Shown: piece by piece, positions 10,061 to 44,175 of the stretch
Layout: each line of letters begins with the position of its first letter
Numbering within the stretch: the stretch's first letter is position 1
Assembly (NCBI GenBank): GCA_900299235.1
Contig: OMIZ01000016.1
Location: forward strand, 1-50,149
Length of the DNA: 50,149 nt
Origin: Actinomycetota bacterium
GTDB lineage: Bacteria; Actinomycetota; Thermoleophilia; Gaiellales; Gaiellaceae
Reading direction: 5' to 3'
The notes under the pieces: generated by a model
The model's database searches: none
What the model was told of the DNA's origin: nothing
The model's input: the letters and a program-made list of their open reading frames with translations, nothing else
Program-made: the position numbers and the translations under genes

Positions 10061-11983
10061 CTAGATCGCGAGGCCGGCGTTTGCGCCAGCCTGGATCGCC
10101 GCAACGAAGTCGGCGGGCCTGGCAGCGTCACCGGCGAGGATCACGGTGCGCGAACCGAGATCGGCAGCAAACTTCTCGCCCTGCGGTCGCCAGCCCACCG
10201 CCATCGCGACGCGGTCAGCGGGGATTGCCGCCTGAGCGCCCGTCTCGACGCTCTCGTAGATCACCTCGTTCGCGTCGATCATCGTCACCTTCGCCCGCGT
10301 GATGATCGTCAGACCCTGCTCCTTGAGCTCGGCCAGCAGGTGCTTGCGCGTAATCAGTTCGATGCCCTGGCCAACGGTCGGCAACATCTCAACGATCGTC
10401 ACCTCGGCACCGGCGCCAAGCAGCCACTCGGCGGTCTCGCAGCCTGTCGCGCTGCCACCCACGATCACGACCTTCTCGCCCGGAGCGACGGCGACGCGGC
10501 CGTGGAGGATCTCCTGCGCGTCAAGGACGTTCGGGCCATCGGCACCCGGAATCGGCGGGATCAGCGGGTCGGCACCGACCGAGACAACAACCACATCGGG
10601 GTTCTCCGCTGCGACCAATTCCGACGTCACGACGCTGCTTGTGTGGATGTGCACACCGAGCTCAGCAAGCTTGCGAGCCTGGTAGTCGCGGAAGTCGAGC
10701 ACCGTGTGCTTGCTCGGCGCACGCGAAGCGACATCGAGCTTGCCACCAAGCTCAGGCTCGCGATCCCAGATCGACACGTCGTGCCCGCGCAGGCGAGCGA
10801 TGCGCGCCGCCTCCATCCCCGCAGGGCCACCACCCACCACCATCACGCGCTTCGCCACCGCCGCCTCACCGATCTCCCAACCGAGCTCGCGACCGACCTC
10901 TGGGTTCACCGCACAACGAGCCTCCTGCGCCTGGGCGACAAGGTCGACACATGCGTTGCACGAGATACACGGGCGCACGTCACTGCGATGGCCGGTGCGA
11001 ATCTTGACGGGCCAGTCGGGATCGGCGATCAGCCCACGCCCAACCGCGATCAGATCGGCGTCACCATCAGCGAGTGCCTGCTCGGCAAGCGCCGGATCGT
11101 CGAGACGACCAGCCGCAGTCACCGGCACCGAGACAGCGGCGCGGATCGCACGAGCAAGGTGCAGCAGGTAGCCGCGCGGCATGAACATCGGGCCGATCGT
11201 GTAGTGGAGCGCGTACCAGTTGCCGGCCGACACGCTGATCGTGTCGACACCGGCCTCCTCAAGCCACTTGCACACCTGCGTCGAATCCTCAAGCGTGAAG
11301 CCGCCCTCAGCCCCCTCCTCACCACTGATGCGATACGAGACCGGATAGTCGGCGCCGCAGCGCTCCTTGATCGCGCGAACGACCTCAATCGGGAAACGCG
11401 CACGATTTTCGAGCGAGCCGCCGTACTCGTCGTCGCGGAGATTCGAGAGCGGCGAGATGAACTCGCACGGCAGGTAGCAGTGCGCCCCGTGCACCTCGAC
11501 GTAGTCGAAGCCAGCCTCCTTCGCGATTGCCGCCGAGAGCGCGTACCAATCGACCATCTCGTGAATCTCGTCGATAGTCATCGCATGCGGCATCGGCGTT
11601 CGGCTCGAAAGCGGCACAGCCGAGGGGCCGATCGGCTGACCGAGCAGCGTCTGCCGACCCGGATGCCAGAGCTGGATGCCAACCGGGATGTCGTACTCCT
11701 TGATCGCCGAGGCAAGCTCGGTGAGGCCCGGGAGGAACTGTTCGCCGTGGAGCCGCAACTCCGGGCCGACGCCGTAGGCATCGGGCGAGACAAGCGAGGC
11801 CTCCAAGGTCATCATCCCCACCCCACCCTCGGCACGCAGACGGTAGTAGGCGAGCGTCCGCGCGTTTGAGGTGCCATCGTGCTCCGGCAAGCCAGTACCC
11901 ATCGGCGCCATCACGATGCGGTTCTTCGCGGTCAAGCCCGCGAACGAGAACGGAGAAAAGAGACGTTCGTAGGTGTCGCTCAT
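10061..11983 (-). CDS. NADH:flavin oxidoreductase / 2,4-dienoyl-CoA reductase family (OYE + FeS + FAD domains), copy 1
   Basis: LFSPFSFAGLTAKNRIVMAPMGTGL, PCISCNACVDLVAQAQEARCAVNPEVG, VMVVGGGPAGMEAARIARLRGHDV. Confidence 0.92.
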   Translation of the reverse strand: MSDTYERLFSPFSFAGLTAKNRIVMAPMGTGLPEHDGTSNARTLAYYRLRAEGGVGMMTLEASLVSPDAYGVGPELRLHGEQFLPGLTELASAIKEYDIPVGIQLWHPGRQTLLGQPIGPSAVPLSSRTPMPHAMTIDEIHEMVDWYALSAAIAKEAGFDYVEVHGAHCYLPCEFISPLSNLRDDEYGGSLENRARFPIEVVRAIKERCGADYPVSYRISGEEGAEGGFTLEDSTQVCKWLEEAGVDTISVSAGNWYALHYTIGPMFMPRGYLLHLARAIRAAVSVPVTAAGRLDDPALAEQALADGDADLIAVGRGLIADPDWPVKIRTGHRSDVRPCISCNACVDLVAQAQEARCAVNPEVGRELGWEIGEAAVAKRVMVVGGGPAGMEAARIARLRGHDVSIWDREPELGGKLDVASRAPSKHTVLDFRDYQARKLAELGVHIHTSSVVTSELVAAENPDVVVVSVGADPLIPPIPGADGPNVLDAQEILHGRVAVAPGEKVVIVGGSATGCETAEWLLGAGAEVTIVEMLPTVGQGIELITRKHLLAELKEQGLTIITRAKVTMIDANEVIYESVETGAQAAIPADRVAMAVGWRPQGEKFAADLGSRTVILAGDAARPADFVAAIQAGANAGLAI

Positions 11984-12963
11984 GCGTGTCCTCCTTCGAC
12001 AAGAAGCTTGCCGACTGCCTCGACCGTGGCGAAGGGGCCAAGCTCGTCGCCCTGACGCGCAGCGGTGGCAACCATGATCGGCAAATCGATGCCGGCAGCG
12101 TGGTACTCGGCCGCACGACGCACGACATCCTCGGCCCCACCAACGACCGTGATGTGACGCACCTCATCGTCGGAGACGAGCTCAAGCGCACCCTTGCGGT
12201 CACCACGAGCCCAGGCCTCACCCACCGCATCAAGGTTCTTCATCGTCCCGATGAACGAGTCGCGATGGGTTGGAACGCAGCCGTACTGCACGAGGTAGCG
12301 TCGCATGCGGTCAAGCGCAGCATCGGTCTCGGGTCCTGCGTACGCGAAGAACGAGACGATCACCAGGAGGTCATCGGGGTTCTTGCCCGCGCGCTCTGCT
12401 CCGCGTCGGGCAAGCGCGACGCGCTCTTCCGCTTCGTCGGGCGGGCACCAGGTCAGGAAGACGCCGTCGGCGACCTCGCCTGCAAGCTCGATCATCTTCG
12501 GCCGCATTGCCGCGAGCACGATCGGGACACGGTGCTCGTTGTCGAGCGTGAGCTTGAAGCCACTGTCGAGACGCTCACCATCAAGCGTCTTGCGCAGGTG
12601 CGGCACGTACTCGCGCACGTACTGCAATGGGGCGGCAAACTCGCGCCCGTGCCACTGCTCGACGACCATCGGACTGGAGACGCCAATGCCAGCCCACACA
12701 CGGCCGGGCGCAAGCGACGCGAGCGTCGCAAAGCCCATGCCGGTCATCGTCGCGCCACGCGGCTGCATCGCCACCACGCCCGTGCCGATCGTGATGCGCT
12801 CAGTCGAAACTGCAACGGCACCGAGGAGTGCCATCGCCTCAGGGCCCTGCACCTCGCCTGCAACGACGGTGTCGAACCCGCCACGTTCGGCGAGCTTCGC
12901 CAACTCGACGAGACGCTGCGCTGACAGCTTCTCCTCGACGGGGATGCTGACGCCGAGCCGCAC
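11980..12963 (-). CDS. LLM-class (luciferase-like, probably F420-dependent) oxidoreductase, copy 1
   Basis: MRLGVSIPVEEKLSAQRLVELAKLAERGGFDTVVAGEVQGPEAMALLGAVAVSTERITIGTGV. Confidence 0.85.
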   Translation of the reverse strand: MRLGVSIPVEEKLSAQRLVELAKLAERGGFDTVVAGEVQGPEAMALLGAVAVSTERITIGTGVVAMQPRGATMTGMGFATLASLAPGRVWAGIGVSSPMVVEQWHGREFAAPLQYVREYVPHLRKTLDGERLDSGFKLTLDNEHRVPIVLAAMRPKMIELAGEVADGVFLTWCPPDEAEERVALARRGAERAGKNPDDLLVIVSFFAYAGPETDAALDRMRRYLVQYGCVPTHRDSFIGTMKNLDAVGEAWARGDRKGALELVSDDEVRHITVVGGAEDVVRRAAEYHAAGIDLPIMVATAARQGDELGPFATVEAVGKLLVEGGHA

Positions 12964-13724
12964 TAAGCTCCCTTGCGCCGGTCGAGGAAGGCTTGAACGC
13001 GCTGCTTGTGATCGTCGGTCGTGAAGAGCAGCGCCGTCGACTCGATCGTGTCGGACATGCCGCGGCTCGCGTTGTCAGCGTTAATGAAGTTCTTTGCGAC
13101 GCGTACCGCGAACGGCGGATGGTCAGCTATCCGACCTGCGAGCGCGAGCGCCTGATCGAGCAACTCATCGTGCGGGTAGACCTCCTGCACCAGGCCGATC
13201 TCCTTCGCCTTGTGCGCGTCGATCTCATCGGCGCTGAACGCAAGCCAACGCGTCCACGCAACTCCAATCACCTGAGGCCCACGCACGATGCCGTACCCCG
13301 GCATCAGGCCGACCGTCGCCTCCTTGAACGAGAAGCGCGCCTGGTCGGACGCAAGGACGATGTCGCACGAGAACGTCAGCTCAGTGCCGCCGCCGTATGC
13401 GATGCCGTTGATCGCGCCGATCACCGGCACCTCGGCCTTTTCGACCGAATGGAAGGCGTCGAAGACAAGCTTCAGATGCCGCCGGTAAGCCGTGAGATCC
13501 GTGAGCTCCGCAAACGACTGAATGTCGCCACCGGCCGAGAACGCGCGGCCGCGACCCGTAAGGACGATCGCGCCACAGGCCGGGTCCGAGCACGCCTCGG
13601 CGAGCGCCAACGGCAGCTCACGAAAGAACGTCGGAGCCATCGCGTTGAGCTTCTCGGGACGGTCAAGCCACACGATTGCCACGTTGCCGCGGCGCTCGAC
13701 GCTAAAGACCTCGAGCTCGGCCAT
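12963..13724 (-). CDS. Enoyl-CoA hydratase family
   Basis: MAELEVFSVERRGNVAIVWLDRPEKLNAM; GAINGIAYGGGTELTFSCDIVLAS. Start corrected from 13964 because that ORF overlaps the next gene. Confidence 0.92.
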   Translation of the reverse strand: MAELEVFSVERRGNVAIVWLDRPEKLNAMAPTFFRELPLALAEACSDPACGAIVLTGRGRAFSAGGDIQSFAELTDLTAYRRHLKLVFDAFHSVEKAEVPVIGAINGIAYGGGTELTFSCDIVLASDQARFSFKEATVGLMPGYGIVRGPQVIGVAWTRWLAFSADEIDAHKAKEIGLVQEVYPHDELLDQALALAGRIADHPPFAVRVAKNFINADNASRGMSDTIESTALLFTTDDHKQRVQAFLDRRKGA

Positions 13725-13735
13725 CGCCGGCCGGC

Positions 13736-14524
13736 CTACCGGAACTCGCGCAGACGCGCGCCGGTCGGGTCGACCTCCTCGCGGAGGAGACGCACCTCCT
13801 CGGCGGTCGGCTCGGCAGTCACCGGAATCTCGCCCGACGGCACGATCACTTCGAAGCCCGTCGCCTCGACCACCTGATCGGCGGTGACGCCAGGGTGCAG
13901 GCTGCGGATACGCATCCGGCGCGACTCCGGCTCGAAATCGAACACACAGAGGTTCGTAACACACAACTGCGGGCCACCAGGAAGACCAAGGCGCGCGCGG
14001 TGGTCGCCGCCGTCGCCCCAGCCCATGCCCGAACGAAAGTCGAGCTTCTCGACGAAGGTGCGCGGATCGTGCGTCGTCGACCAGAGGTAGATAAGCGGCA
14101 GCATGCAGCCAAGGTCGGCCATACCGCCGCCGCCAGGGAGACGCACCTTCGGAGCCGTGTACGGGCCGATCACGGTGTTGTTGACGTTGCCGTACGCATC
14201 CATCTGCGCTCCGCGGAACGCGAACGTGTTGTACCGCCGGCCCTGCGAGTACGCCCAGAAGTCATACGACGAGCCCGAGAGCATCGTCGCGCCATCCCAG
14301 AGACCATCCGAAAGCGTCGACTCGGGGATCGCCTTCGGCTTCGCATCGACCGCGATTGAGCTTGCAGCCCAGACGAGCTCGGGCGCGTGGGTCTTCCGCG
14401 CGAGCAGGTAGGCGCAGACTGGAACGAACGACACGGCACCGTTGAATGCGCGCGTGTCGTTTGTGAACTCGTGAGCGAGCGTCGCGACCATCAGCTCGTC
14501 GATCGTGTACTCGACCGTGCTCAC
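13736..14524 (-). CDS. CoA-transferase-fold beta subunit (IpdB-like), copy 1
   Basis: MSTVEYTIDELMVATLAHEF..., FAFRGAQMDAYGNVNNTVIGPYTAPKVRLPGGGGMADLG. Confidence 0.85.
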   Translation of the reverse strand: MSTVEYTIDELMVATLAHEFTNDTRAFNGAVSFVPVCAYLLARKTHAPELVWAASSIAVDAKPKAIPESTLSDGLWDGATMLSGSSYDFWAYSQGRRYNTFAFRGAQMDAYGNVNNTVIGPYTAPKVRLPGGGGMADLGCMLPLIYLWSTTHDPRTFVEKLDFRSGMGWGDGGDHRARLGLPGGPQLCVTNLCVFDFEPESRRMRIRSLHPGVTADQVVEATGFEVIVPSGEIPVTAEPTAEEVRLLREEVDPTGARLREFR

Positions 14525-15423
14525 GAGCTCTTCCTCCGAATGTTGATCAGCGTGGCCGCGCCACCGTTCGCGTCGAGGAACGCGCCCTGCGACTCGGGGC
14601 CGTCGATCCGCTCAGACCAGAACCACTGCGCCTGCTCAGGATCGGTGTGTGCGGCGACATACGAGCGGAAGAACGCACCGTCGTAGCCGTATTCGGGGAA
14701 GCACGACGTCGGATAGGCGCCCCAGGGGGCTTCGGCGACAGCGTCGACCATGAAGCGCGGATATGTCGTTCTGGCAGGTTCGGCGATGAACGTCGACTCG
14801 CTGACGATCCGCTCGACCGTGATGATCGACTTGGCGGCCGCGCGAACAACCTCGGCGTCCATCCACACGAGCTTCGGATCGACACGGACGTTGCCACGTG
14901 TGTCGGCTTCGGTTGCGTGGACGATGCCGAAGTCGAGCGGCAGCGGTGTGCACGCAACGTACGCCTCGCCGGTGGCGGGGTCGGTCTCCGGGCGGAGGGT
15001 TGTCGGATGCAGCGCAAGCATGTCTGTGCCGAGACCAGCTTTGGTCGGCACGAAGGGAAGGTTGTAGGCAGCTGCCTGAAGACGGCAGATCAGCGTGTGC
15101 TCGCTGTACTCCTCGATCTCGACTTGACCAGCCTGAACGGCGGCGCGGAAGCGAGGGGCAAGGCCGAAGCCTTCAAGCGACACGAGACCTGAGACGACGC
15201 GCCGGACGCAGCCGGCCGCGACCAGCCACTCGATCGGCATTCCCGCAACAACAGCGACGACGGTGAGATCCTTGACGCGACGCTTCGCAAGCGTGCGGAC
15301 GAAGGCCATCGGTGCCGCGTTCATCGAGAGGCCGCCGATCCCGATCGTTGCTCCGTCGGGGATCAGCTCTGCCGCTTCTTCGAGCGAAAGCAGCTTGGAT
15401 TCGTGCTCGGAGGAAGCGGCCAC
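14521..15423 (-). CDS. CoA-transferase-fold alpha subunit (IpdA-like), copy 1
   Basis: LLSLEEAAELIPDGATIGIGGLSMNAAPMAFVRTL; LPFVPTKAGLGTDML. GTG start at 15423 preferred because the 15462 start would place the operator inside the gene. Confidence 0.85.
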   Translation of the reverse strand: MAASSEHESKLLSLEEAAELIPDGATIGIGGLSMNAAPMAFVRTLAKRRVKDLTVVAVVAGMPIEWLVAAGCVRRVVSGLVSLEGFGLAPRFRAAVQAGQVEIEEYSEHTLICRLQAAAYNLPFVPTKAGLGTDMLALHPTTLRPETDPATGEAYVACTPLPLDFGIVHATEADTRGNVRVDPKLVWMDAEVVRAAAKSIITVERIVSESTFIAEPARTTYPRFMVDAVAEAPWGAYPTSCFPEYGYDGAFFRSYVAAHTDPEQAQWFWSERIDGPESQGAFLDANGGAATLINIRRKSS

Positions 15424-15434
15424 TAGAATCGCGA

Positions 15435-15452
15435 ATCTACCGGCCGTTTGGT
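15435..15452. promoter_or_regulatory. Putative operator (site 3), divergent IpdA-like / alpha-beta hydrolase
   Basis: ATCTACCG-GC-CGTTTGGT, 13/16. Confidence 0.6.
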
Positions 15453-15463
15453 GGAAGGTCAAC

Positions 15464-25865: not shown

Positions 25866-27350
25866 CTAATCGGAAGCGGCGGCCTCGCCTGCTCTGATCC
25901 CGAAAACGAGGGCGGGACCGATGGTGCCGCCGGCGCCGGGGTATGCGAGCCCAAAAGGTGACGCCGCGGCGTTGCCCGCTGCGTAGAGGCCGGGGATCGG
26001 GGTTCCGTCGAGTGCGCTGAGGACGCGGCCGTCGGCGTCGGTCTTGGGGCCACCTTTGGTGCCGAGGCAGCCTGGGTGGATTTCGAGGGCGTAGTAGGGG
26101 CCTTCGCCAAGTGCGCCGAGTTCACCGACGAAGCGGTCGTAGGCGTAGTTGCCGCGGCCGAAGACGTTGTCGATGCCTGCGTCGGCGCCGCGATTGAAGG
26201 TGCCGACAGTCTGTTCGAGCGTGGCTGCGTCGATACCAAGTTTCTCGGCGAGTTCGCCGAGGGTGTTGGCTTTGGTGAGCCAGGCTGGGTCGGGGTCGTC
26301 GGGGGTGATGGTGAAGACGCGGTATTCGTTGCGGTAGGTCGCGTCGAAGATGAGCCAGGCAGGGACGTGTCGGAAGGCGTAGCTCGCGGCGTCGAAGTCC
26401 TGCATGGTGCGGCCGAGGTCGTTGTAGTTCTGGGATTCGTCGACGAAGCGGTTGCCGGTGCGGTCGACGATCAGGCAGCCGGGGCGTGCGCGCTCGCCGA
26501 GCATGAGGCGGTACATGGGGCTTGTGTCGATGAGGTCGCCGGGGAGGCTGACTGCTGGGGCCCACCACGCTTCGCTCATTGAGCCGAGTGCTGCGCCTGC
26601 GGCCATGGCGATGCGGAGGCCGTCGCCTTGGTTGGTTGGCACGCCGGTGGGTGCGGTCATCGGGCCGCGGAGGAATGCCTTCACGAGCTGTTCGTCGCGT
26701 TCGAAGCCGCCTGAGGTGATGATCACGGCGTCGGCTTCGGGCAGCGAGGTGATGCGCTGTCCTGTCTTTACCTCGACACCGAGTTCGAAGCAGGCTTCGA
26801 GGAGGCAGGCGATTAGCGCCTGGCCGGCGGTGAAGGTGCCCCGTTCTTTCCTTGCTGCGAGTTCGGCTGGGTCGGCGGTGCCGGCCCAGAGTTCGGCGTA
26901 GGTGATCGTGCCCCAGCGGTTTGGTGCATCGCGGATCAGTGAGCGCACGGCGTCGGGTGCGTCAAATGCGAGTGGCTCGAGCGAGCGGCCGCCTTGTGGT
27001 CGGCCTCCTGGATGCTCGGAGTGGTAGTCGGGGTACGGCAGGGCCGCCCAGCGCAGTGAGGTCTCGTCTTCGAGGCGCTTCGCGACGGGTCCTGAGTCGC
27101 GGACGAATACTTCGACGAGTTCGCGGTCGACGTCACCGAGCTCCAGGCTTCGCATGTACTCGAGGCCTGCCTCGATGGTGTCGTCGGAGAGGTGGTTTGC
27201 GGGCAGCCATGACACGCCGCCCGAGAGGGCGGTGGTGCCACCGACTTTCTCGTGGCTTTCGTACACGGTGACTGATGCGCCGGCCTTGGCTGCGGCCCAT
27301 GCTGCGGCGAGCCCAGCGGTTCCTGCACCGATAACTGCAACCCTTTTCAT
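25866..27350 (-). CDS. FAD-dependent oxidoreductase, 3-ketosteroid-delta1-dehydrogenase (KstD)-like
   Basis: VAVIGAGTAGLAAAWAAAKAGASVTVYESHEKVGGTTALSGGVSWLPANHL; C-term LAYPGAGGTIGPALVFGIRAGEAAA. Confidence 0.8.
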   Translation of the reverse strand: MKRVAVIGAGTAGLAAAWAAAKAGASVTVYESHEKVGGTTALSGGVSWLPANHLSDDTIEAGLEYMRSLELGDVDRELVEVFVRDSGPVAKRLEDETSLRWAALPYPDYHSEHPGGRPQGGRSLEPLAFDAPDAVRSLIRDAPNRWGTITYAELWAGTADPAELAARKERGTFTAGQALIACLLEACFELGVEVKTGQRITSLPEADAVIITSGGFERDEQLVKAFLRGPMTAPTGVPTNQGDGLRIAMAAGAALGSMSEAWWAPAVSLPGDLIDTSPMYRLMLGERARPGCLIVDRTGNRFVDESQNYNDLGRTMQDFDAASYAFRHVPAWLIFDATYRNEYRVFTITPDDPDPAWLTKANTLGELAEKLGIDAATLEQTVGTFNRGADAGIDNVFGRGNYAYDRFVGELGALGEGPYYALEIHPGCLGTKGGPKTDADGRVLSALDGTPIPGLYAAGNAAASPFGLAYPGAGGTIGPALVFGIRAGEAAASD

Positions 27351-29275
27351 GCTGCCCTCCCGGCGTCGTCGCCTTCTCTGAATGCGTGCATGGCTGTGCG
27401 GGGCGCGTTTGCGTCACCGATCACGATGAGCTGAGCGCCAGATCGCTCGGCCGCCCCTGCCAGCGAGGTGTCGCTGCGACCGTGGACGCTGGCGACGATT
27501 GCGGTGAAGGGTCGTTCGCGTACTTCCTTGGTGTAGACGTTGCGCGTCACGGCGAGGCCGCCAGCGATCCCGGCGAAGGCTGTGCTCGACTCCATCTCAA
27601 CGCCGAGTTCGACGTAGCGTCCGATCACATCGGCGAGGTGCGTGAAGCCGAGGTTCTGGCCGACGTTCAGGTACGGGGTCGCGATTGTGAGTTTGGCGCC
27701 GTTTCGCGCGATGTGCTCGGCGGTGAGGGCTGCTTCGCTGTCGGCTTTGAGATCGACGAAGAGCACTGCGCCGGTGAAGGTGGGCTGCGCTAGCGCTTCG
27801 TCGATTGAGAGCACGGGGATGCTGCCGTCGCTCTCGACACCAAGGCGGTCGGGCGCGGGCCTCGCCCCGGTCGCGAGCACGACGACGTCGGCTGACGCGA
27901 GCTCTGGCTCCCCCGCCTCAACTCCGACGTTGACCGTTACCCCGAGTGACGCGAGTTCACCTTCAAGCCATTCGATTGAGCGGTAGAGCTCGGCTGCATC
28001 GCCGAGGCCACGCACCCAGCGAAGGCGGCCGCCGAGCTCCTGCTCACGCTCGTACAGCGTCACGGTGTGGCCGCGTCGCGCAGCGATCTCGGCTGCCTTC
28101 AGCCCGGCAGGCCCACCGCCGACCACGACGACGTGCTTCGGGGTGGTCGTCGGCGTCGGCTCTCCCTGCGTTTCGCGCCCAACGTCTGGGTTGTGGAAGC
28201 AGGTGATCGGCAGGCCAGCGACCATCCGGTCGACGCAGCCCTGGTTCGCACCCACGCAGTGGCGGATGTGCACGCCGCGTGAGGTCTTCTCGACGAGGTC
28301 AGGGTCGGCGATCAGCCCGCGTGTCATTGCGACGAGGTCGCAGTCGCCGTTCGCGATCGCGGCCTCGGCCTGGACGGGATCGTTTACACGGCTTGCGGCG
28401 ATGATGGGCACCTGCTGCTCGATCTCGTCACGCAGCTTGTGCGCGAGGGGCAAGAACTCGCCGAGCCGGTGGCGGAAGTTGCCGATCGTGCGCGCGTAAT
28501 GGCCGGTACGGGAGCCCTCGGATTGATTGACGTAGTCGAGCCCACCCGTGCCAACGAACGTCTTTGCGACATGCCGTAGGCCTGCCTGACCGAGCCCACC
28601 TCGTTCCGGGTTGAGGAAGTCGTCGGTTGAGATCCGTAGGCCGACGACGGGCTCGCGCCCGATGCGCGCACGGACACGCTCGATTAGCGCCTTCCCGAAT
28701 GCGAACTGGTCGCCCCATTCGTCATCGCGCCGGTTGCCCCAGGGGCTAAACGACTGCTGGAGGAGGTAGCCGTGCGTTCCATGCAGCTCCACTCCGTCGA
28801 TTCCCGACTCGATCGCGATCGCCGCGGTGGCCGCGAATGCGTCGAGTACCTCTTCAATCTCGACGCCTGTCATCTTGTGGGCACCCTCGCCTTCGGCCGT
28901 GACGAGGTCGTCGAACGCCCAAATGGGCTGGAACGCAGTTCGCCCGTTTGAGGTGAACTGACCGCCGAAGTGGATCAGCTGTTGAAAGACCTTGCCGCCG
29001 TGCCGGTGGATGCGGTCGGCCATTGAGGTGAGCTTGCGGCGGAGGTCATCGGGCTCGTACGGAAAGTGCCCGAGCGCGTGACTTGATGGATGGACGTGAA
29101 CGGGCTGAAGGATGATCAGCCCCGCCCCGCCCTTGGCGCGCCGCTCCTGGTAGGCCTCGTACCGCTCACCGTCGATGCCCGGGCGGTAGTACTCGAGAAA
29201 CGAGCCGTGCGCCGTTGAAACGACGCGGTTGCGAACCTCGATCGAGCCGATCTGGACAGGGCTCAAGAGCTGCAT
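27347..29275 (-). CDS. NADH:flavin oxidoreductase / 2,4-dienoyl-CoA reductase family, copy 2
   Basis: LLSPVQIGSIEVRNRVVSTAHGSFL; HCVGANQGCVDRMVAGLPITCFHNPDVG; VVVVGGGPAGLKAAEIAARRGHTV. Confidence 0.92.
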   Translation of the reverse strand: MQLLSPVQIGSIEVRNRVVSTAHGSFLEYYRPGIDGERYEAYQERRAKGGAGLIILQPVHVHPSSHALGHFPYEPDDLRRKLTSMADRIHRHGGKVFQQLIHFGGQFTSNGRTAFQPIWAFDDLVTAEGEGAHKMTGVEIEEVLDAFAATAAIAIESGIDGVELHGTHGYLLQQSFSPWGNRRDDEWGDQFAFGKALIERVRARIGREPVVGLRISTDDFLNPERGGLGQAGLRHVAKTFVGTGGLDYVNQSEGSRTGHYARTIGNFRHRLGEFLPLAHKLRDEIEQQVPIIAASRVNDPVQAEAAIANGDCDLVAMTRGLIADPDLVEKTSRGVHIRHCVGANQGCVDRMVAGLPITCFHNPDVGRETQGEPTPTTTPKHVVVVGGGPAGLKAAEIAARRGHTVTLYEREQELGGRLRWVRGLGDAAELYRSIEWLEGELASLGVTVNVGVEAGEPELASADVVVLATGARPAPDRLGVESDGSIPVLSIDEALAQPTFTGAVLFVDLKADSEAALTAEHIARNGAKLTIATPYLNVGQNLGFTHLADVIGRYVELGVEMESSTAFAGIAGGLAVTRNVYTKEVRERPFTAIVASVHGRSDTSLAGAAERSGAQLIVIGDANAPRTAMHAFREGDDAGRAA

Positions 29276-29284
29276 GCGACCTCC

Positions 29285-30481
29285 TTACGACACGCGAAGG
29301 AGCGGCCCAGGGCGGCCGCAGGAACAGGGCGCGTTTGAGAGCGATCCTCGGGCGCCGGGAGCGAACCGCAGAAGTGGAGCGCCGCGACGGCCGAGCGGGG
29401 TGACGAGGATCTCTCCCTCGACACCTGGTGCGACAGGGGTGCCGTTTACATCGACAACTTCAACGAGGTGGCGCTCGAACACGTGCAGCTCACGCGAACC
29501 AGCAGCGCACGCCGCCGCAACAGCGCCCGTGGCGGGTGTTCCCCAGAGCGCAGCGTGTGGCCAGCCGCCCGCATCGTGTGTCGTCCCAACGACGAGTCGT
29601 ACCGAGCTGAGATCGGCGCCGGTCGCCTCAGCCTGCGCGCGAAAGCTTGCGACGTCGGCGTGCGCGGGCGCAAAGAGCACCGTTGCCTTGCCTTCAGCTG
29701 CCGCCGCGACCGGGTCGGCACCACCCGGAACGATCATTGTTGCCCGCAGGTGCGTCGCCGCGGCGGCGAGACCACGCTGCGAGGCGAGCGCGAGGATGCG
29801 ATCGCTTGCGGTCACTCCGGCTGTCGCTAGCGCCTTGGCAAGCGTCTCGTCGTTCTCTGCGATGTCAGTTGGAGTGAGCGGCAACGTGTAGCCGCCGAGG
29901 GTGATCTCCTGCGCAACCTGCTTGGCGTCAACAACCCCGAGCTCCGCGCCGACAAGCTCGGCTGCTCGCGTTGGCGGGACGGTGGTGATGTCGGCGGCGA
30001 CGTCTTCGGGCCCAACACCTGCTGCTGCGAGCCGGTCACGGTAGAACGGGCTTCGCTTGGCGGCGTGACGAACGAGCGTCTTCAGACGAGCCGCCGGAGC
30101 ACCCGGCCGCGTCGCGGCCTTTCGCACAGCATCGATGTCGTACCAGGTGGTGAGCCGGCAGATCATCCCGTCTCGCATCGTGAAGACGTCAACCGCCTCG
30201 AACTCGACCGGCACCCCTTCGTGGGTCTCGCCCGTGAAGTGGATCTCGACCGTCACGATGTCGCCGGCCACGTGGATCGCGTACGGATCGTCGTAGTGCA
30301 CCGGATAGGGCACGAGTACCGTCGAGTAGTAGGTGAGCACGTCCTCTTTGCCTGACCGCGGCCGTGCGCCTACACCGATCAGCTCGGCATCCTCGGTCCA
30401 GATGCCGTTGAAGTCGTCCCAGTTTTCGTTGTTCAGGCCGTCGAAGTACCGGCGAATCGCTTCCGGGACTTCGCCGGCCAT
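29285..30481 (-). CDS. Fusion: SnoaL/NTF2-like domain + degenerate, C-terminally truncated PaaK-like adenylation domain
   Basis: N-term AIRRYFDGLNNENWDDFNGIWTEDAELIGVG...TTWYDIDAVRKA; C-term RLKTLVRHAAKRSPFYRDRLAAAGV...CSCGRPGPLLRVS*. Confidence 0.75.
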   Translation of the reverse strand: MAGEVPEAIRRYFDGLNNENWDDFNGIWTEDAELIGVGARPRSGKEDVLTYYSTVLVPYPVHYDDPYAIHVAGDIVTVEIHFTGETHEGVPVEFEAVDVFTMRDGMICRLTTWYDIDAVRKAATRPGAPAARLKTLVRHAAKRSPFYRDRLAAAGVGPEDVAADITTVPPTRAAELVGAELGVVDAKQVAQEITLGGYTLPLTPTDIAENDETLAKALATAGVTASDRILALASQRGLAAAATHLRATMIVPGGADPVAAAAEGKATVLFAPAHADVASFRAQAEATGADLSSVRLVVGTTHDAGGWPHAALWGTPATGAVAAACAAGSRELHVFERHLVEVVDVNGTPVAPGVEGEILVTPLGRRGAPLLRFAPGARGSLSNAPCSCGRPGPLLRVS

Positions 30482-31597
30482 CTACAGGCTCCGCAGCCGC
30501 TCGCGGATCTCGTTCAGGGCGCGGAACGAGAAGCCGGCAAGTGACGGATCACCGAACGCGGTGATGTTCCAGAGGATCGGATGTCGCAGGCCCGCCCGGT
30601 GGAACTCCGCCATCTCGTCGACGATCTGGTCGACCGTGCCGCAGAAGGCGTAGTAGTCGAGCGTCCGGGGCGGGATCGCCTCGGCGATCCGCAGACCCTC
30701 CTCACGATTGACCCGCGTTGGCAGGAAGTCGTGGAAGCCCGAGCCGGCGCTACCGAGCGGCGGCTCGATGCCAAGCTTCTGGAACGTCTCCGATGGCAGG
30801 AGCACGCAGAGCAGACGCACGAGCGGATGCTGCTTGAGCCGCTCCACCGTCTCTTCGTCGGGGCCAACGAGCACGTACGCGAGCATGCCCGGTGTGACGC
30901 TGTCTTCCGCGCGACCCGCATCAACCGACGCGCTCTTGATGGTGTTGAGCGCGTTCGCGTACTCGGCAGCTTCCATCTTGGTTGGCAGCCAGCCATCGCC
31001 CTTGCGGCCCGTGATGCCAAGCATGCGCGGCTTGTGCGCGGCGATCCAGATCGGCGGGCCACCCGGCGTGTAGGGCTGCAGGCCGAGGACGGCGTCCTTC
31101 AGTTGGTAGAACTCGCCGTCGAAATCGACCGCCCCTTCGGCGCCCCAGAGCAGGCGGATCACATCGAGCGCCTCGTCGAGGTGGCCGACCGGCTTGTCCC
31201 ACGACATGCCGTACGGCGTGACGTTCAGCTGCTCACCGCTGCCGAGACCGAGGATCGAGCGGCCACGAGTGACGTGGTCGATCGTCAGCGCAGTCTGTGC
31301 GAGAACAGCTGGATGATGGGTGATTACGTCGGTGACGACGACACCGACCTTGATTTTTTCGGTCTGCGCGCCAACCACCGGCATCATCACCAGCGGGTCG
31401 AAATAGGTGTGCGGGTTTGGCTGGAACTTCGCGAGCGGCGTGATGTCCTCCGTCCACACCGACTCGGGGTGCCAGCCCATCAGGTGGCTTGGCCACCAGA
31501 TCGAGTCGTAACCGTCTGCCTCGGCCCGCTTGGCGAGCTCGACCGCCTTGTCAGCGGGCGGCATGATCGTTCCGGGTGCGCCGAACTCGATCTCCAT
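30482..31597 (-). CDS. LLM-class (luciferase-like) oxidoreductase, copy 2
   Basis: KAVELAKRAEADGYDSIWWPSHLMGWHPES..., LAQTALTIDHVTRGRSILGLGSGE. Start at MEIEFGAPG. Confidence 0.9.
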   Translation of the reverse strand: MEIEFGAPGTIMPPADKAVELAKRAEADGYDSIWWPSHLMGWHPESVWTEDITPLAKFQPNPHTYFDPLVMMPVVGAQTEKIKVGVVVTDVITHHPAVLAQTALTIDHVTRGRSILGLGSGEQLNVTPYGMSWDKPVGHLDEALDVIRLLWGAEGAVDFDGEFYQLKDAVLGLQPYTPGGPPIWIAAHKPRMLGITGRKGDGWLPTKMEAAEYANALNTIKSASVDAGRAEDSVTPGMLAYVLVGPDEETVERLKQHPLVRLLCVLLPSETFQKLGIEPPLGSAGSGFHDFLPTRVNREEGLRIAEAIPPRTLDYYAFCGTVDQIVDEMAEFHRAGLRHPILWNITAFGDPSLAGFSFRALNEIRERLRSL

Positions 31598-32397
31598 TAC
31601 TTCACACCTGCCTCTCGCTTGCACATTCCGTCGGGATCAATGACCTCGCGAAGCAGGCGCACCTGCTCGGCCGTTGGCTTCGGTGTCTCCTCGACGCTGG
31701 AGGGGACGAGCAGCTCGAAGCCAGTCGCCTCCTGCACCTGCTCGACGGTCACGCCCGGGTGCACCGAGCGCAGGCGCATCCGCTTTGAGTCGGGAGCGAA
31801 GTCGAGAACAGCCAGGTTCGTCACGACGAGCTTCGGGCCGCCGGTGAGGCCGAGCTTGTCGCGCTCGTCGCCACCACCGAGGTAGCCCGGGCATGAGACG
31901 AAGTCGACCTTCTCCACGAGCGAACGCGGGTTGTGGTTCGTGTTCCAGTACAGGAGGTTCTTCCCGAGCGCCCCCATGTCGGCGAGGCCGGCCGTCCCCG
32001 GCAGACGCACCTTCGGGCGGTGGTAGTCGTCACCGATCACCGAGTTGTTGGCGTTGCCGTACTGGTCAAGCTGCGCGGCGCCGACGCAGAACGTGTGCAG
32101 GTGGCGGCCGCTCTGGGCGTAATGCCAGAAGTCGCCGTACTGCTCGAGGTACATCACTGAGTCGCGCCAGAGAGGTGCTTCAAGCGTCGAGGCTGGCACC
32201 CGATCGGGGCGCGGATCGACACCGGCGGCACCTGCGAGCCATACGAGCTCGGGTGCGTGAGTGCGCAGCGCAAGCATGATCGCCGCGACAGGGATGAACG
32301 ACGCCATGCCGTTGCACACCTCGTCGCCGTCCTTGAACTGGGCGGCGAGCGTGGCGCACATCAGCTCGTCAATGGTGTATTCGCCGTAGTCAGCCAT
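31597..32397 (-). CDS. CoA-transferase-fold beta subunit (IpdB-like), copy 2
   Basis: MADYGEYTIDELMCATLAAQFKDG; FCVGAAQLDQYGNANNSVIGDDYHRPKVRLPGTAGLADMG. Confidence 0.85.
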   Translation of the reverse strand: MADYGEYTIDELMCATLAAQFKDGDEVCNGMASFIPVAAIMLALRTHAPELVWLAGAAGVDPRPDRVPASTLEAPLWRDSVMYLEQYGDFWHYAQSGRHLHTFCVGAAQLDQYGNANNSVIGDDYHRPKVRLPGTAGLADMGALGKNLLYWNTNHNPRSLVEKVDFVSCPGYLGGGDERDKLGLTGGPKLVVTNLAVLDFAPDSKRMRLRSVHPGVTVEQVQEATGFELLVPSSVEETPKPTAEQVRLLREVIDPDGMCKREAGVK

Positions 32398-33269
32398 TAG
32401 CGCGTCAACTCCAGAATCCGCTCGGCGCCACCAACGGCGGCGAGGTAGTCGGCCTGCGTCGCGGGCGCATAGACGTACTTCTGCAGGAACGCCTGCGTTG
32501 CCTCGTCGTCGCGCGCGACCTTGATCCACTCAAGGTGGAAGGCCGTGTCGTAGGTGTAGTTCGGGAAGAACGACGTCGGATGGGCGCCGTAGGGAACCTC
32601 GACAACCGCGTCGACGGCGAAACCCGGCAGCACCGTGCGGTCGGGATTGCGCCGCAGCACTTCGGTGTCGACGATCTCCTCGGCGGTGACGATGACCTTC
32701 TTCGAAGCCTTCGGGAAGATCCCGAGGTCGGGCCACTTGATCGTCGGATCCATCTGCACGTTCCCGCGCGCATCTGCCCGATGGGCGTGGATGAACGCGA
32801 CGTCCGGGACGAGCGCGCGACAGGCGACAACGGTCTCACCCGTGAACGGATCCTGGATCAGCGTCAGGTTGTCGTTGATGTCGACAAGGTCAGAGCCGAG
32901 CATGCCGCGAGTCGGCAGGAATGGCAGGTTGCGCGCACCGGCACCGAGCCGCGCGTTGAGCGCTGTCTCGGACAGCTCCTCGACACGCACCCGACCACCC
33001 TCGACAGCCTTGCGGTACTGGTTGCAGAGGCCGAACTGCTCCATCGACACCGCGGCACCGATGAACCGGTCGATCACGCCTGCGGCTGCAAGCCAGTCGA
33101 CGGCCATGCCGCCCACGAGACAGACGAGCCCGAGGTTCCGCTTCTCTTGGCGGATCAGCTCGCGGACGAGCGCCATTGGCGCTGCCTGCGTCGCCATGTT
33201 TTGGAGGGCGACGATCTCCCCGTCGGAAACGAGTCCGACCGCCTCCTCGATGGTCATGACCTTGTTCAT
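32397..33269 (-). CDS. CoA-transferase-fold alpha subunit (IpdA-like), copy 2
   Basis: MNKVMTIEEAVGLVSDGEIVALQNMATQAAPMALVRELI; LPFLPTRGMLGSDL. Listed start (33881) overlaps the SDR gene. Confidence 0.85.
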   Translation of the reverse strand: MNKVMTIEEAVGLVSDGEIVALQNMATQAAPMALVRELIRQEKRNLGLVCLVGGMAVDWLAAAGVIDRFIGAAVSMEQFGLCNQYRKAVEGGRVRVEELSETALNARLGAGARNLPFLPTRGMLGSDLVDINDNLTLIQDPFTGETVVACRALVPDVAFIHAHRADARGNVQMDPTIKWPDLGIFPKASKKVIVTAEEIVDTEVLRRNPDRTVLPGFAVDAVVEVPYGAHPTSFFPNYTYDTAFHLEWIKVARDDEATQAFLQKYVYAPATQADYLAAVGGAERILELTR

Positions 33270-34048
33270 GAGAGTTGCACGATCTCCATTCCACCGTGGA
33301 TTTCGAGGATCTGGCCTGTGATGTAGTCCGAGTCTGCCGAGGCAAGGAACGCCACAGATGCGGCGACGTCGTCCGGCTGGCCTGGCCGTCCGATCGGCAC
33401 CATCGCGTCGATCTTCGCAACGACCTCGCCGGGAATCCCGAGCACGTCTCCCTCGCCACGGGCGGAGGTCAGACGTGTGCCCTGGATGTAGCCCGGAGCG
33501 ACCGCGTTCACATTGATCTTCTGGTGCGCCCATTCGCGGGCAAGCGCCTTCGTGAGGCCGATCACGCCGCCCTTGGCCGCGCTGTAGTTCACGTTCCCGG
33601 CGACGCCATAGATGCCGTTGATCGACGCCATGTTGACGACCTTGCGGTTGTACGGAGCATCCTTCTGGCGCAATAGCCGTGCCGCGGAGCGGCAGAGGTA
33701 GAAGGTGCCCTTGAGGCTGACGTCGAGGACGAGATCCCACTCGTCGTCGGTCATCCGATGCAGCATCGCGTCGCGGGTGATGCCCGCGTTGTTCACGAGG
33801 ATGTCGAGCTTGCCGAACTCTCGCTCGGCTGTCGCAACGAGCTCGTCGCACGCTGCGACCTCGGCAACGCTGCCGACGCACACGACCGACCCGGGGATTC
33901 CAGCAGACGCCTCGCGGGCGACGTCGGCGTCGACGTCGTTGACGACGACCGACGCGCCCTCAGCGGCAAGCCGCTCGGCGATTGATTTGCCGATGCCCCG
34001 GCCGGAGCCGGTGACGATCGCGACCTTTCCTTCGAGCGTTCCTCCCAT
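33266..34048 (-). CDS. SDR-family oxidoreductase (FabG-like)
   Basis: VAIVTGSGRGIGKSIAERLA; NNAGITRDAML; NYSAAKGGVIGLTKALAREWA. Confidence 0.95.
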   Translation of the reverse strand: MGGTLEGKVAIVTGSGRGIGKSIAERLAAEGASVVVNDVDADVAREASAGIPGSVVCVGSVAEVAACDELVATAEREFGKLDILVNNAGITRDAMLHRMTDDEWDLVLDVSLKGTFYLCRSAARLLRQKDAPYNRKVVNMASINGIYGVAGNVNYSAAKGGVIGLTKALAREWAHQKINVNAVAPGYIQGTRLTSARGEGDVLGIPGEVVAKIDAMVPIGRPGQPDDVAASVAFLASADSDYITGQILEIHGGMEIVQLS

Positions 34049-34050
34049 CG

Positions 34051-35442
34051 CTAGTAGCGCCAAGCATCCCCGAACTCAGCGATGCGTCCGCCAAGCACGG
34101 TCTCGGCCGCGGTCAGGCCGGCGCGCGCAGCGCGGTCGACACCGATGCCGCGGCTGCGGAACGTCTCGCTCGCAAAGAGCAGGCCCTCGACGTTCGGCGC
34201 CTTCCAATGCGGGCGGTACGCACCGACGAGGCCCGGCTTCTGGATGACCCCGAACGACGGCTCGTACACCATGTGACGGCGACGCCACACGGGATTTGCG
34301 AGGCCGGGGTACATCGTGCCGATGTCGGCTTCGAACTTCGGGAAGATCTCCTGCAGGAACTGCTGGTCGTTGCCCTTCTCGCCCGGAACGATGCCGCCCG
34401 CGACGTAGAGGTACTTGCCCTCCGGCGCCGTGGTTGGATCGAGCGCGGTCATCTCGAACAGGAACCCCGGGACACGCGCGGTCGGCGTATGCAGCCAGGT
34501 CGACAGCTCGAGTCGATCGAGGATCGGCACCGGCTCGTCCGTTGCGAGGTAGAGGCCAAGCCACGCGATGCGGAACTTGTCCTGCGCGAGGTGCTTGATC
34601 TGGCCGACGTACCAGTCGGGCAGCTCCCACTCCGGCACCACCTTGAGGACATGCCACACAGGAAGGGTCGAGATGACGACGTCGGCCTCGATCAGCTCGT
34701 CTTCGAACATCTCGTTCGGGAGTATCCGCGGCTGGCGTGCGATGTGGACGCCCTTGACCTGATGGTTCTCGATGACGACGCGCTCGACGTTCGTGCCAAG
34801 CCGCACCTCGCCACCGTTCTCGGTGACGGCATCGGAGAGATCCTGGAAGAGACCATCCCAACCCTGCTCGGGCCAGAACGAGTAGGCCGCCATGTGCTTC
34901 TCCATGTAGTGCATCTTCCGCACGTACAGCGCTTCGCTCGCCGAGTGATCCCACCAATCTTCGGTCATGTACTCGAGGACGGAGATGTACTCGAAGAGAT
35001 CGACGACGCCCTGGTCGGTCGAGTACTGGTGGATCCACTCGCGCAGCGAGCGGTCGTCCCACTTCTCGAACTCCTCGTACGGCGTGTCGACGACGGCCTT
35101 GATGACCTTCTTCAGCTCGTCCTTGTTGCCGGAGTACCGGTCGCGGATCGAGCCCCACTTTTCGGCCTTGTGATCCCAGACGTTCATGTCGGTATTCGCC
35201 GGGCCGTGGCCGAGGCGCTTGCCGAGGTACTCGAAGATCTTGGTGATGCCCGAGCCGGAGTCCTCCAGGAGGTGTCCGCCGAGGTTGAGCTTGAAACCCT
35301 CGTCCGGCACGGCCATGCCGCGGCCACCGAGGTACGGGGCCCGGTCGAAGACGACGACCTTCTTCCCGTTCTTTGCCAGGATCGCGGCTGCCGAGAGGCC
35401 TGCTGCGCCCGCTCCGATTACCGCGACGTCGTACTTCGCCAT
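34051..35442 (-). CDS. CrtI-like (phytoene desaturase/amine oxidase superfamily) flavoprotein, copy 1
   Basis: YDVAVIGAGAAGLSAAAILAKNGKKVVVFDRAPYLGGRG; C-term SRGIGVDRAARAGLTAAETVLG. Confidence 0.85.
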   Translation of the reverse strand: MAKYDVAVIGAGAAGLSAAAILAKNGKKVVVFDRAPYLGGRGMAVPDEGFKLNLGGHLLEDSGSGITKIFEYLGKRLGHGPANTDMNVWDHKAEKWGSIRDRYSGNKDELKKVIKAVVDTPYEEFEKWDDRSLREWIHQYSTDQGVVDLFEYISVLEYMTEDWWDHSASEALYVRKMHYMEKHMAAYSFWPEQGWDGLFQDLSDAVTENGGEVRLGTNVERVVIENHQVKGVHIARQPRILPNEMFEDELIEADVVISTLPVWHVLKVVPEWELPDWYVGQIKHLAQDKFRIAWLGLYLATDEPVPILDRLELSTWLHTPTARVPGFLFEMTALDPTTAPEGKYLYVAGGIVPGEKGNDQQFLQEIFPKFEADIGTMYPGLANPVWRRRHMVYEPSFGVIQKPGLVGAYRPHWKAPNVEGLLFASETFRSRGIGVDRAARAGLTAAETVLGGRIAEFGDAWRY

Positions 35443-42349: not shown

Positions 42350-42829
42350 ATGACCGTACGCGCTGATCACCACATCTCCGTTCGGGTCTCGGATCTTGAC
42401 CGATCGATCCGTTTCTACACCGAAGCGGTCGGTGGCACGCTGCTCACCGAACCGGTCGTCCGTAACGGTCCGATCATCGACGAGGTGTTCGGGCAGGGTG
42501 CTGAGGCACGGATGTGCTTCGTCGGGTTCGACAGCAACAGCGTTGAGCTGTGGCAGTTTCTGAATCCGGTGACGCCGATTCCCTACTCCGACCAGCCGCG
42601 GCTCGGAATCATGCATTTTGCGATCACCGTCGACGACGTCGATGCTGCCGCTGCGCGCGTCGTTGCTGGCGGCGGCAAGCTGCGCTTCCCGGTCAAGGAT
42701 CTCGGTGGCGGCGACACGCCCGCCCGCTTCGTCTACTGCGAGGATCCCGACGGCAACGTCTTTGAGTTTCTCGACACCGACTTGCACGGCACGCTCGCGC
42801 GACTCAGGGCGCGCAACCAGGGCACGTGA
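42350..42829 (+). CDS. VOC-family protein
   Basis: ADHHISVRVSDLDRSIRFYTEAVGGTL...YCEDPDGNVFEFLD. Confidence 0.88.
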   Translation: MTVRADHHISVRVSDLDRSIRFYTEAVGGTLLTEPVVRNGPIIDEVFGQGAEARMCFVGFDSNSVELWQFLNPVTPIPYSDQPRLGIMHFAITVDDVDAAAARVVAGGGKLRFPVKDLGGGDTPARFVYCEDPDGNVFEFLDTDLHGTLARLRARNQGT

Positions 42830-44175
42830 AGGCCGACGTCGCAGTTATCGGGGCTGGCGTTGCCGGCCTATCGACCGCAGCGATCCTTGCCGCACAGGGC
42901 AAGAAGGTTGTCGTCGTTGAGCGCGAGCGCACGCTTGGTGGACGTTCACGTCACTGGCGCTATCGCGGCCACGAGATCGGGCTCGGCTCGCACCTCGTTG
43001 AGGATCCAGGCGATAGCCTCACGCGCGTCTGCGACCTGATGGGCATCACGATGACCCACTCGGAGCGCAGCGACTCGATGCCGTTCTGGGACAAGAAGGG
43101 CTGGAAGCCGATCCAGGAGTTCTACGGCGGCGCTGCGAAGGCAGGGCTAAGGAGCTGTATTGAAGCGCTCGTCGAAACGCCCTACGAGGAGCTCGACCGC
43201 TGGGATCACGCCTCGCTACGCGAATGGATGGCGCAGTACACGAGCGATCCGGGCGTCTACCTCGTGTGGGAGGCGATCTCGATGCTCGAGCAGATCACGA
43301 CCCACCCATGGGAGCATTCCGCGTCCGAGAACCTCTACATCCGCAAGCTGCACTACGAGCTCAAGCGCACGGCGGGCTACTCGTTCTGGCCGATCGGTGG
43401 CTGGGTGAAGCTGTGGGAGCAGATGGGCGAAGGGATCCGCAAGCTCGGTGGCGAGATCCTGCAGCCCGTGTCGGTAAACCGCGTGATCGTCGAGAACCGC
43501 GCCGTCAAAGGCCTTGAGCTTTCGACGGGCGAGATCCTCGAGACCGAGAACGTCGTCGCCTCCACCCCAGTCTGGAATCTGCCACGCCTCTTCGATCCTG
43601 GCGTGCTGCCATGGGATCTCGAGCAGCGGATTGACCTGCTGCGCAAGAACCAGAACCGCGCCTGCTGGATCGGCTACTGGATCGCAGCGAAGGAGCCGGT
43701 GATCGCGATGACCGAGCGTGAGATGGCGTCGTTCTTCGCCACGCCACGCACGGGACTCCCCGGCTTCACGCTCAACTTCACGGGGTACGACCCGTCGATC
43801 TCACCGAAGGGCGAGTACCTCACGTGCGTTGGTGCGGCCTTCGATGCGGTCGCGCACTACGGCGACAAGGCATGGCTCGAGCGAAAGTTCCAGGAGCTGT
43901 GGCTTGATATCGAAGAGATGCTCCCTGCCGCGAAGGGCGCGCTCTGGAAGAAGCGTCACCTGGTGACGAGCTATGGCGTCATTTGCAAGCCGGGCCTCGT
44001 TGGCGCAGTACGACCCGACGCGACGGTGCGTGGGGTCGACGGCCTCTGGCTCACGGGCGATACAACTCGCGCACGCGGCGTGGGTATCGACAAAGCCGCA
44101 CGCAGCGGCATTACGAGCGCGGAGGCCGTGCTCGGTACTCGACTTCCTCACTTCTCTGGGACGGTGCGATATTGA
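42826..44175 (+). CDS. CrtI-like flavoprotein, copy 2
   Basis: ADVAVIGAGVAGLSTAAILAAQGKKVVVVERERTLGGRS; extended shared motifs with the 34051-35442 product. Confidence 0.85.
   Translation: MKADVAVIGAGVAGLSTAAILAAQGKKVVVVERERTLGGRSRHWRYRGHEIGLGSHLVEDPGDSLTRVCDLMGITMTHSERSDSMPFWDKKGWKPIQEFYGGAAKAGLRSCIEALVETPYEELDRWDHASLREWMAQYTSDPGVYLVWEAISMLEQITTHPWEHSASENLYIRKLHYELKRTAGYSFWPIGGWVKLWEQMGEGIRKLGGEILQPVSVNRVIVENRAVKGLELSTGEILETENVVASTPVWNLPRLFDPGVLPWDLEQRIDLLRKNQNRACWIGYWIAAKEPVIAMTEREMASFFATPRTGLPGFTLNFTGYDPSISPKGEYLTCVGAAFDAVAHYGDKAWLERKFQELWLDIEEMLPAAKGALWKKRHLVTSYGVICKPGLVGAVRPDATVRGVDGLWLTGDTTRARGVGIDKAARSGITSAEAVLGTRLPHFSGTVRY

Follow-up and report, generated by a model that had tools for sequence, protein, structure and literature searches.

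PaaK is a homodimer, and it has been suggested to recruit later enzymes of its pathway (PMC4432964, PMC4498308). In the PaaK-type coenzyme A (CoA) ligase NatL2, three cysteines and one histidine bind a structural zinc more than 20 Å from the AMP (PMC7204872). The Asp of motif III is needed for ribose binding, and replacing it abolishes acetyl-CoA synthetase activity (PMC3438747). Among SnoaL/NTF2-family enzymes, SteC, a dehydratase of steroid-degrading Comamonas, and BaiE of gut bacteria both act on steroid rings (PMC13101464), and IpdAB hydrolyzes a steroid ring in mycobacteria (PMC5380842). Besides, Escherichia coli PaaH is a catabolic enzyme with a second Rossmann domain that lacks the catalytic residues (PMC4498308).

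Here we describe a gene in a 50,149-nucleotide stretch of actinobacterial DNA (hereafter, the window) that joins a SnoaL/NTF2-like domain to a PaaK-derived domain stripped of its ATP-binding motifs. To our knowledge, catalytically dead homologues of adenylate-forming enzymes that selection has preserved as part of a fusion with another enzyme have rarely been documented in bacteria. Our literature search found no published description of a SnoaL-PaaK architecture, and no article joining SnoaL and PaaK, or phenylacetate-CoA ligase and pseudoenzyme.

Architecture of the fusion gene and its operon

The fusion gene (P0001) encodes 398 aa in a single frame that begins with ATG, ends with TAA, and has no stop in between (Table 1). 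Residues 9 to 109 matched the Pfam model SnoaL_2 (PF12680) with 55.8 bits, passing the gathering cut-off of 27. The C-terminal part had no Pfam match and matched PaaK-type NCBIfam models, namely, NF045666 (1e-19), NF041878 (1.3e-17), and TIGR02155 (1.5e-6), at scores below the equivalog cut-offs (70.8 of 300, 63.5 of 700, and 27 of 646 bits, respectively); PaaK-family chains in the PDB matched it as well. When the C-terminal parts of the two orthologues, combined into one profile, were compared by hhalign with a profile of 32 PaaK-type ligases, homology to the N-terminal AMP-binding domain of the ANL/PaaK family was found with a probability of 99.8% (E value, 4e-28); 262 of 269 columns aligned, corresponding to PaaK residues 17 to 325. 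The fusion thus has a reduced PaaK N-domain and ends before the C-domain with its catalytic Lys, of which nothing is present; only 9 bp separate the stop from the next gene, which leaves no room for a hidden C-domain. An earlier note made from the DNA letters had read the gene in just this way, as a clean frame with about 125 residues of SnoaL/NTF2-like domain, a PaaK-like remainder, and a stop where the mobile C-terminal domain should start, and the strings that it quoted (RLKTLVRHAAKRSPFYRDRLAAAG, EITLGGYTLPLTPTDI, and CSCGRPGPLLRVS*) are all correct in the 398-aa translation.

TABLE 1 Coordinates of the fusion gene, its sites, and the neighboring genes in the window
Feature	Position	Strand	Evidence or remark
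CrtI/HpnE-like FAD oxidoreductase, first gene of run	34051..35442	(-)	PF01593; other families have orthologues of about 60-67% identity
SDR dehydrogenase	33266..34048	(-)	PF13561; 4-bp overlap
CoA-transferase-fold subunit, IpdA-like	32397..33269	(-)	PF01144
CoA-transferase-fold subunit, IpdB-like	31597..32397	(-)	PF01144; 1-bp overlap
LLM-class (luciferase-like) oxidoreductase, immediately upstream of fusion	30482..31597	(-)	PF00296; gap 0 bp
SnoaL-pseudoPaaK fusion gene P0001	29285..30481	(-)	398 aa; orthologue P0002 88% identical, equal length
SnoaL/NTF2-like domain, aa 1-125	30107..30481	(-)	PF12680 E 7.7e-15; 13-sequence alignment; omega 0.006
Pseudo-PaaK domain, aa 131-398, N-domain only	29288..30091	(-)	hhalign probability 99.8, 262/269 columns; omega 0.10
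Lost P-loop site (motif I/A3), aa 191-207, QEITLGGYTLPLTPTDI	29861..29911	(-)	Alignment with functional PaaKs bearing SSGTTGxP-type loops
Lost motif II/A5 (YGLSE) site, aa 305-325, flanking helix deleted	29507..29569	(-)	Alignment
Motif III/A7 equivalent PLLRFAPGAR, aa 369-378; invariant Asp replaced by Ala377	29348..29377	(-)	Alignment; Asp role PMC3438747
Putative zinc-ligand codon C325, retained	29507..29509	(-)	Invariant column C244 of A2; NatL2 zinc site PMC7204872
Putative zinc-ligand codon H333, retained	29483..29485	(-)	Invariant column H252
Putative zinc-ligand codons C386 and C388 (CxC), retained	29318..29326	(-)	Invariant columns C307, C309
Old-yellow-enzyme-type NADH:flavin oxidoreductase (mycofactocin OYE_2/BaiCD-like)	27347..29275	(-)	PF00724; TIGR03997 8e-135, NF041087 3e-81, below cut-offs
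FAD dehydrogenase (ketosteroid- or oxocyclohexanecarboxylate-dehydrogenase-like)	25866..27350	(-)	PF00890; NF053676 3e-105, NF005882 5e-98, below cut-offs

The gene lies in an operon of eight minus-strand genes separated by gaps of -4 to +9 bp, in the order CrtI-like FAD oxidoreductase, SDR, IpdA-like, IpdB-like, LLM, fusion, OYE, and FAD dehydrogenase. Given the precedent of IpdAB (PMC5380842), ring degradation is the likely theme of the operon. The window also holds a paralogous minus-strand run at 10061-15462, with OYE, LLM, enoyl-CoA hydratase, and IpdB/IpdA-like genes but no SnoaL or PaaK gene; the IpdA-like copies of the two runs are 41% identical. A second CrtI-like FAD oxidoreductase gene (42826-44175, plus strand) encodes a protein 42% identical to the operon copy. 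Elsewhere in the genome, an intact PaaK gene (L180, 3777-5108, minus strand) adjoins a CoA-transferase-fold gene and an enoyl-CoA hydratase gene.

Distribution and origin of the fusion

Among 60 relatives, an orthologue (P0002) was found in a second species of the genus, the uncultured actinobacterium Kiruna_bin-03445 (G010; CAIWTI010000098.1). It is likewise 398 aa long, is 88% identical, and shares the last residues, the stop, and the gene order of the operon. The fusion is therefore neither an assembly artifact nor a recent truncation; a frameshift truncation is ruled out by the identical end in two species and by the lack of room for a C-domain. Within the genus, close matches to both the SnoaL gene and the IpdA-like gene of the operon occurred in only 2 of 13 genomes (G000 and G010 of G000 to G012), indicating that the operon is patchily distributed. 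No further genome with both domains in one protein was detected among 129 of the order (SnoaL query), 397 sampled from the phylum (whole-protein query), or 399 from the class (two-row profile). A scan of 84,980 species genomes with two exact 7-residue SnoaL peptides, which can miss distant cases, returned only the Kiruna orthologue. No plasmid record covered both domains, and scans of viral contigs gave four PaaKs, with no SnoaL and no PaaK relatives of the subgroup. A 566-aa frame in genome G141 that seemingly joined a SnoaL-end match to PaaK turned out to be a normal PaaK spuriously extended at its upstream end.

A tree with 44 PaaKs placed the two pseudo-PaaK domains together behind a branch estimated at about 3.1 changes per site. 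This length carries a long-branch warning and leaves the placement unsure; no close functional PaaK ancestor was found in this tree. A recent PaaK ancestor was not found in the same genus either, and the genome's own intact PaaK was among the weakest matches.

Homologues of the SnoaL domain occur unfused in other families of the phylum, where they adjoin orthologues of the CrtI-like (about 60 to 67%), LLM (56 to 59%), or OYE (50%) genes, and no PaaK was seen in those clusters. The presence of the same partner genes beside unfused homologues implies that the unfused state is likely ancestral and that the fusion arose from it as a rare variant. Two of these homologues have other additions: in G373 (L143, 7763-9370, plus strand), SnoaL follows an NAD-dependent epimerase domain via a Gly/Ser-rich linker, directly downstream of an LLM gene, and in G700 (L191, 3440-4189, minus strand), it is extended at its C-terminus by about 110 aa without a Pfam match.

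Loss of the ATP site and retention of the zinc ligands

Alignment with the 32 PaaK-type ligases confirmed that the SSGTTGxP loop, reported as missing in the earlier note, is gone. Where functional PaaKs have SSGTTGxP-type loops, the P-loop region reads QEITLGGYTLPLTPTDI in the fusion and QEITLGNFTLPLVATDI in the Kiruna orthologue; at the position of motif I, (T/S)SGTTGxP, stand QEITLGGYTL and QEITLGNFTL, respectively, in which no more than isolated Gly and Thr residues align, and these vary with the placement of gaps. Motif II, Y-G-x-(T/S)-E, is deleted together with the preceding helix in both orthologues, and both have Ala377 in place of the invariant Asp of motif III. It is thus extremely improbable that the protein is a still working ligase with an unusual ATP site or with its C-domain supplied in trans. 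The N-domain is present and nothing else speaks for such an enzyme, whereas motifs I, II, and III are all lost, including the Asp whose replacement abolishes activity in acetyl-CoA synthetase (PMC3438747). Furthermore, the genome, which is 88% complete, yielded a single PaaK C-domain (PF14535), and this is part of the intact PaaK on another contig; a split enzyme is therefore unlikely.

In contrast to the ATP motifs, the three Cys and one His of the NatL2-type structural zinc site are conserved at the aligned positions (C325, H333, C386, and C388), and we infer from these residues that the pseudo-PaaK domain binds zinc. By a hand tally from the alignment list, 16 of 22 PaaK columns conserved in at least 90% of the ligases are kept in the zinc-bearing stretch (PaaK residues 244 to 315), versus 8 of 24 in residues 40 to 243, within which motifs I and II fall. 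As far as the alignment indicates, the zinc part that keeps the fold has been retained and the nucleotide part has been dismantled. AlphaFold models of the fusion had pLDDT values of 34 (2-row alignment) and 43 (6-row alignment), too low to show an ATP site either way. A Foldseek search with the second model ranked the PaaK family first, a ranking that is partly circular because the alignment fed to AlphaFold contained PaaKs.

Selection on the two domains

Both domains are under purifying selection. According to Nei-Gojobori estimates, which rest on one pairwise comparison of the two orthologues with dS near 1, the SnoaL domain (aa 1 to 125) has a dN of 0.0035, a dS of 0.59, and an omega of 0.006, and the PaaK part (aa 131 to 398) has a dN of 0.10, a dS of 1.0, and an omega of 0.10 (bootstrap interval, 0.07 to 0.15). 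The operon neighbors range from 0.02 to 0.06 in the same species pair; the PaaK part is looser than these, yet far from neutral. Its omega, about 16-fold that of the SnoaL domain, is what might be expected if a dead piece of PaaK had been caught in the fusion and were now being lost. However, the upper bound of 0.15, the lack of any frameshift or stop in two species, and the intact zinc ligands make such a decaying remnant very unlikely.

Catalytic residues have been lost from a coding sequence under purifying selection, as in a pseudoenzyme. The loss of the ATP motifs, the retention of the zinc ligands, and the selection together identify an ancient maintained pseudoenzyme and not a degenerating gene. 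The earlier note had also taken the protein for what looked like a maintained pseudoenzyme and had named as checks the search for the architecture in other genomes, dN/dS across orthologues, and structure prediction. The first two support this assignment: Kiruna_bin-03445 shares the fusion, its length, and its stop, and both domains have omega values well below 1. In addition, the C-domain and all three ATP motifs are gone, and the zinc ligands are kept. The note's further proposal, an acyl/CoA-binding scaffold or sensor, is borne out only in the scaffold-like retention of the zinc subdomain.

Selection would also be expected if the PaaK part had gained a new, ATP-independent catalytic activity, and the long branch ahead of the two orthologues is compatible with a change of function. 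We nevertheless regard a new activity as improbable, considering that deletions have removed the active-site loops and that no new conserved catalytic constellation is recognizable with two sequences.

Possible roles of the two domains

Residues conserved in at least 12 of 13 SnoaL homologues include Y12, N17, D31, D64, E79, D98, W113, and D115, a pattern that fits an active site. Y12 and D98 fall where ketosteroid isomerase has its oxyanion-hole Tyr and Asp. The catalytic base of that enzyme, Asp38, has no counterpart here (no Asp stands at this position in the aligned DAELI-GVGARPRSG), and a copy of the ketosteroid isomerase reaction is therefore not implied. The SnoaL domain is most likely the catalytic part, dehydrating or isomerizing a keto or enone ring intermediate that would arise between the flavin- and F420-type redox steps of the operon; the action of SteC and BaiE on steroid rings offers a precedent (PMC13101464).

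The C-terminal domain goes back to a PaaK-type CoA ligase, of which it is the N-domain. ATP binding has been lost, as has the catalytic lid, and the domain has long been kept under selection, probably as a folded, zinc-stabilized module. The N-domains of PaaK as a rule form dimers. Since PaaK is a homodimer suggested to recruit later enzymes (PMC4432964, PMC4498308), oligomerization or partner docking is the simplest function that could survive. We therefore favor, with moderate confidence, the view that SnoaL is the working part and that the pseudo-PaaK domain is a selected, zinc-stabilized structural module, which most likely oligomerizes the SnoaL domains or docks a pathway partner.

The main rival to this zinc-stabilized platform is ligand sensing, as the earlier note had it: the pseudo-PaaK domain would sense an intermediate, or load it, through an acyl or acyl-CoA pocket that presents it to the SnoaL active site. 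ANL N-domains carry an acyl pocket, CoA-transferase-fold genes lie in the operon, and the domain is under selection, all of which would suit such a role. However, the zinc subdomain and the C-terminal end are the best-kept parts, residues 151 to 200 are the fastest-evolving stretch (62% identity between the two orthologues), and CoA binding in the superfamily also uses the C-domain, which is missing here; ligand sensing or substrate loading accordingly seems doubtful.

Returning to the structural reading, a more specific form of it is possible, and we put it forward tentatively: the ATP-stripped N-domain may be a dedicated zinc-stabilized binding or assembly module that organizes a ring-degradation complex around the SnoaL enzyme. 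If true, this would be a new reuse of the CoA-ligase fold without adenylation.

Comparison with known systems

Like the PaaK-type CoA ligases (phenylacetate-CoA ligase, NatL2, AjiA1, and BT_0428), the fusion shows homology over the whole N-domain, and its putative zinc ligands are those of NatL2; unlike them, it has no P-loop, motif II, or C-domain, has Ala for the motif III Asp, and carries an attached SnoaL domain. Among NCBIfam models, the PaaK part matched best that of the DVU_1553 family AMP-dependent CoA ligase (NF045666), whose 331 positions suggest an N-domain-sized protein; our search found no literature on this family. SteC and BaiE belong to the same SnoaL/NTF2 family as the first domain of the fusion, although the known cases are unfused. 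BaiE, too, acts alongside an OYE-type enzyme encoded in its operon; it was not among the PDB sequence matches. Ketosteroid isomerase shares the fold family but not the catalytic base. E. coli PaaH resembles the fusion in combining a catabolic enzyme with a dead domain, although its dead domain has a Rossmann fold and not an ANL fold.

The fusion sets the zinc subdomain, which keeps the fold, apart from the nucleotide site that was lost, and is a clean test case of what the N-domain of a CoA ligase can do without ATP. Besides, it marks a set of genes (CrtI-like FAD enzyme, LLM, OYE, SDR, and SnoaL) that is partly conserved in several families of the phylum (L187 to L192, L144, and L162 to L163) and possibly represents an undescribed actinobacterial ring-degradation pathway.
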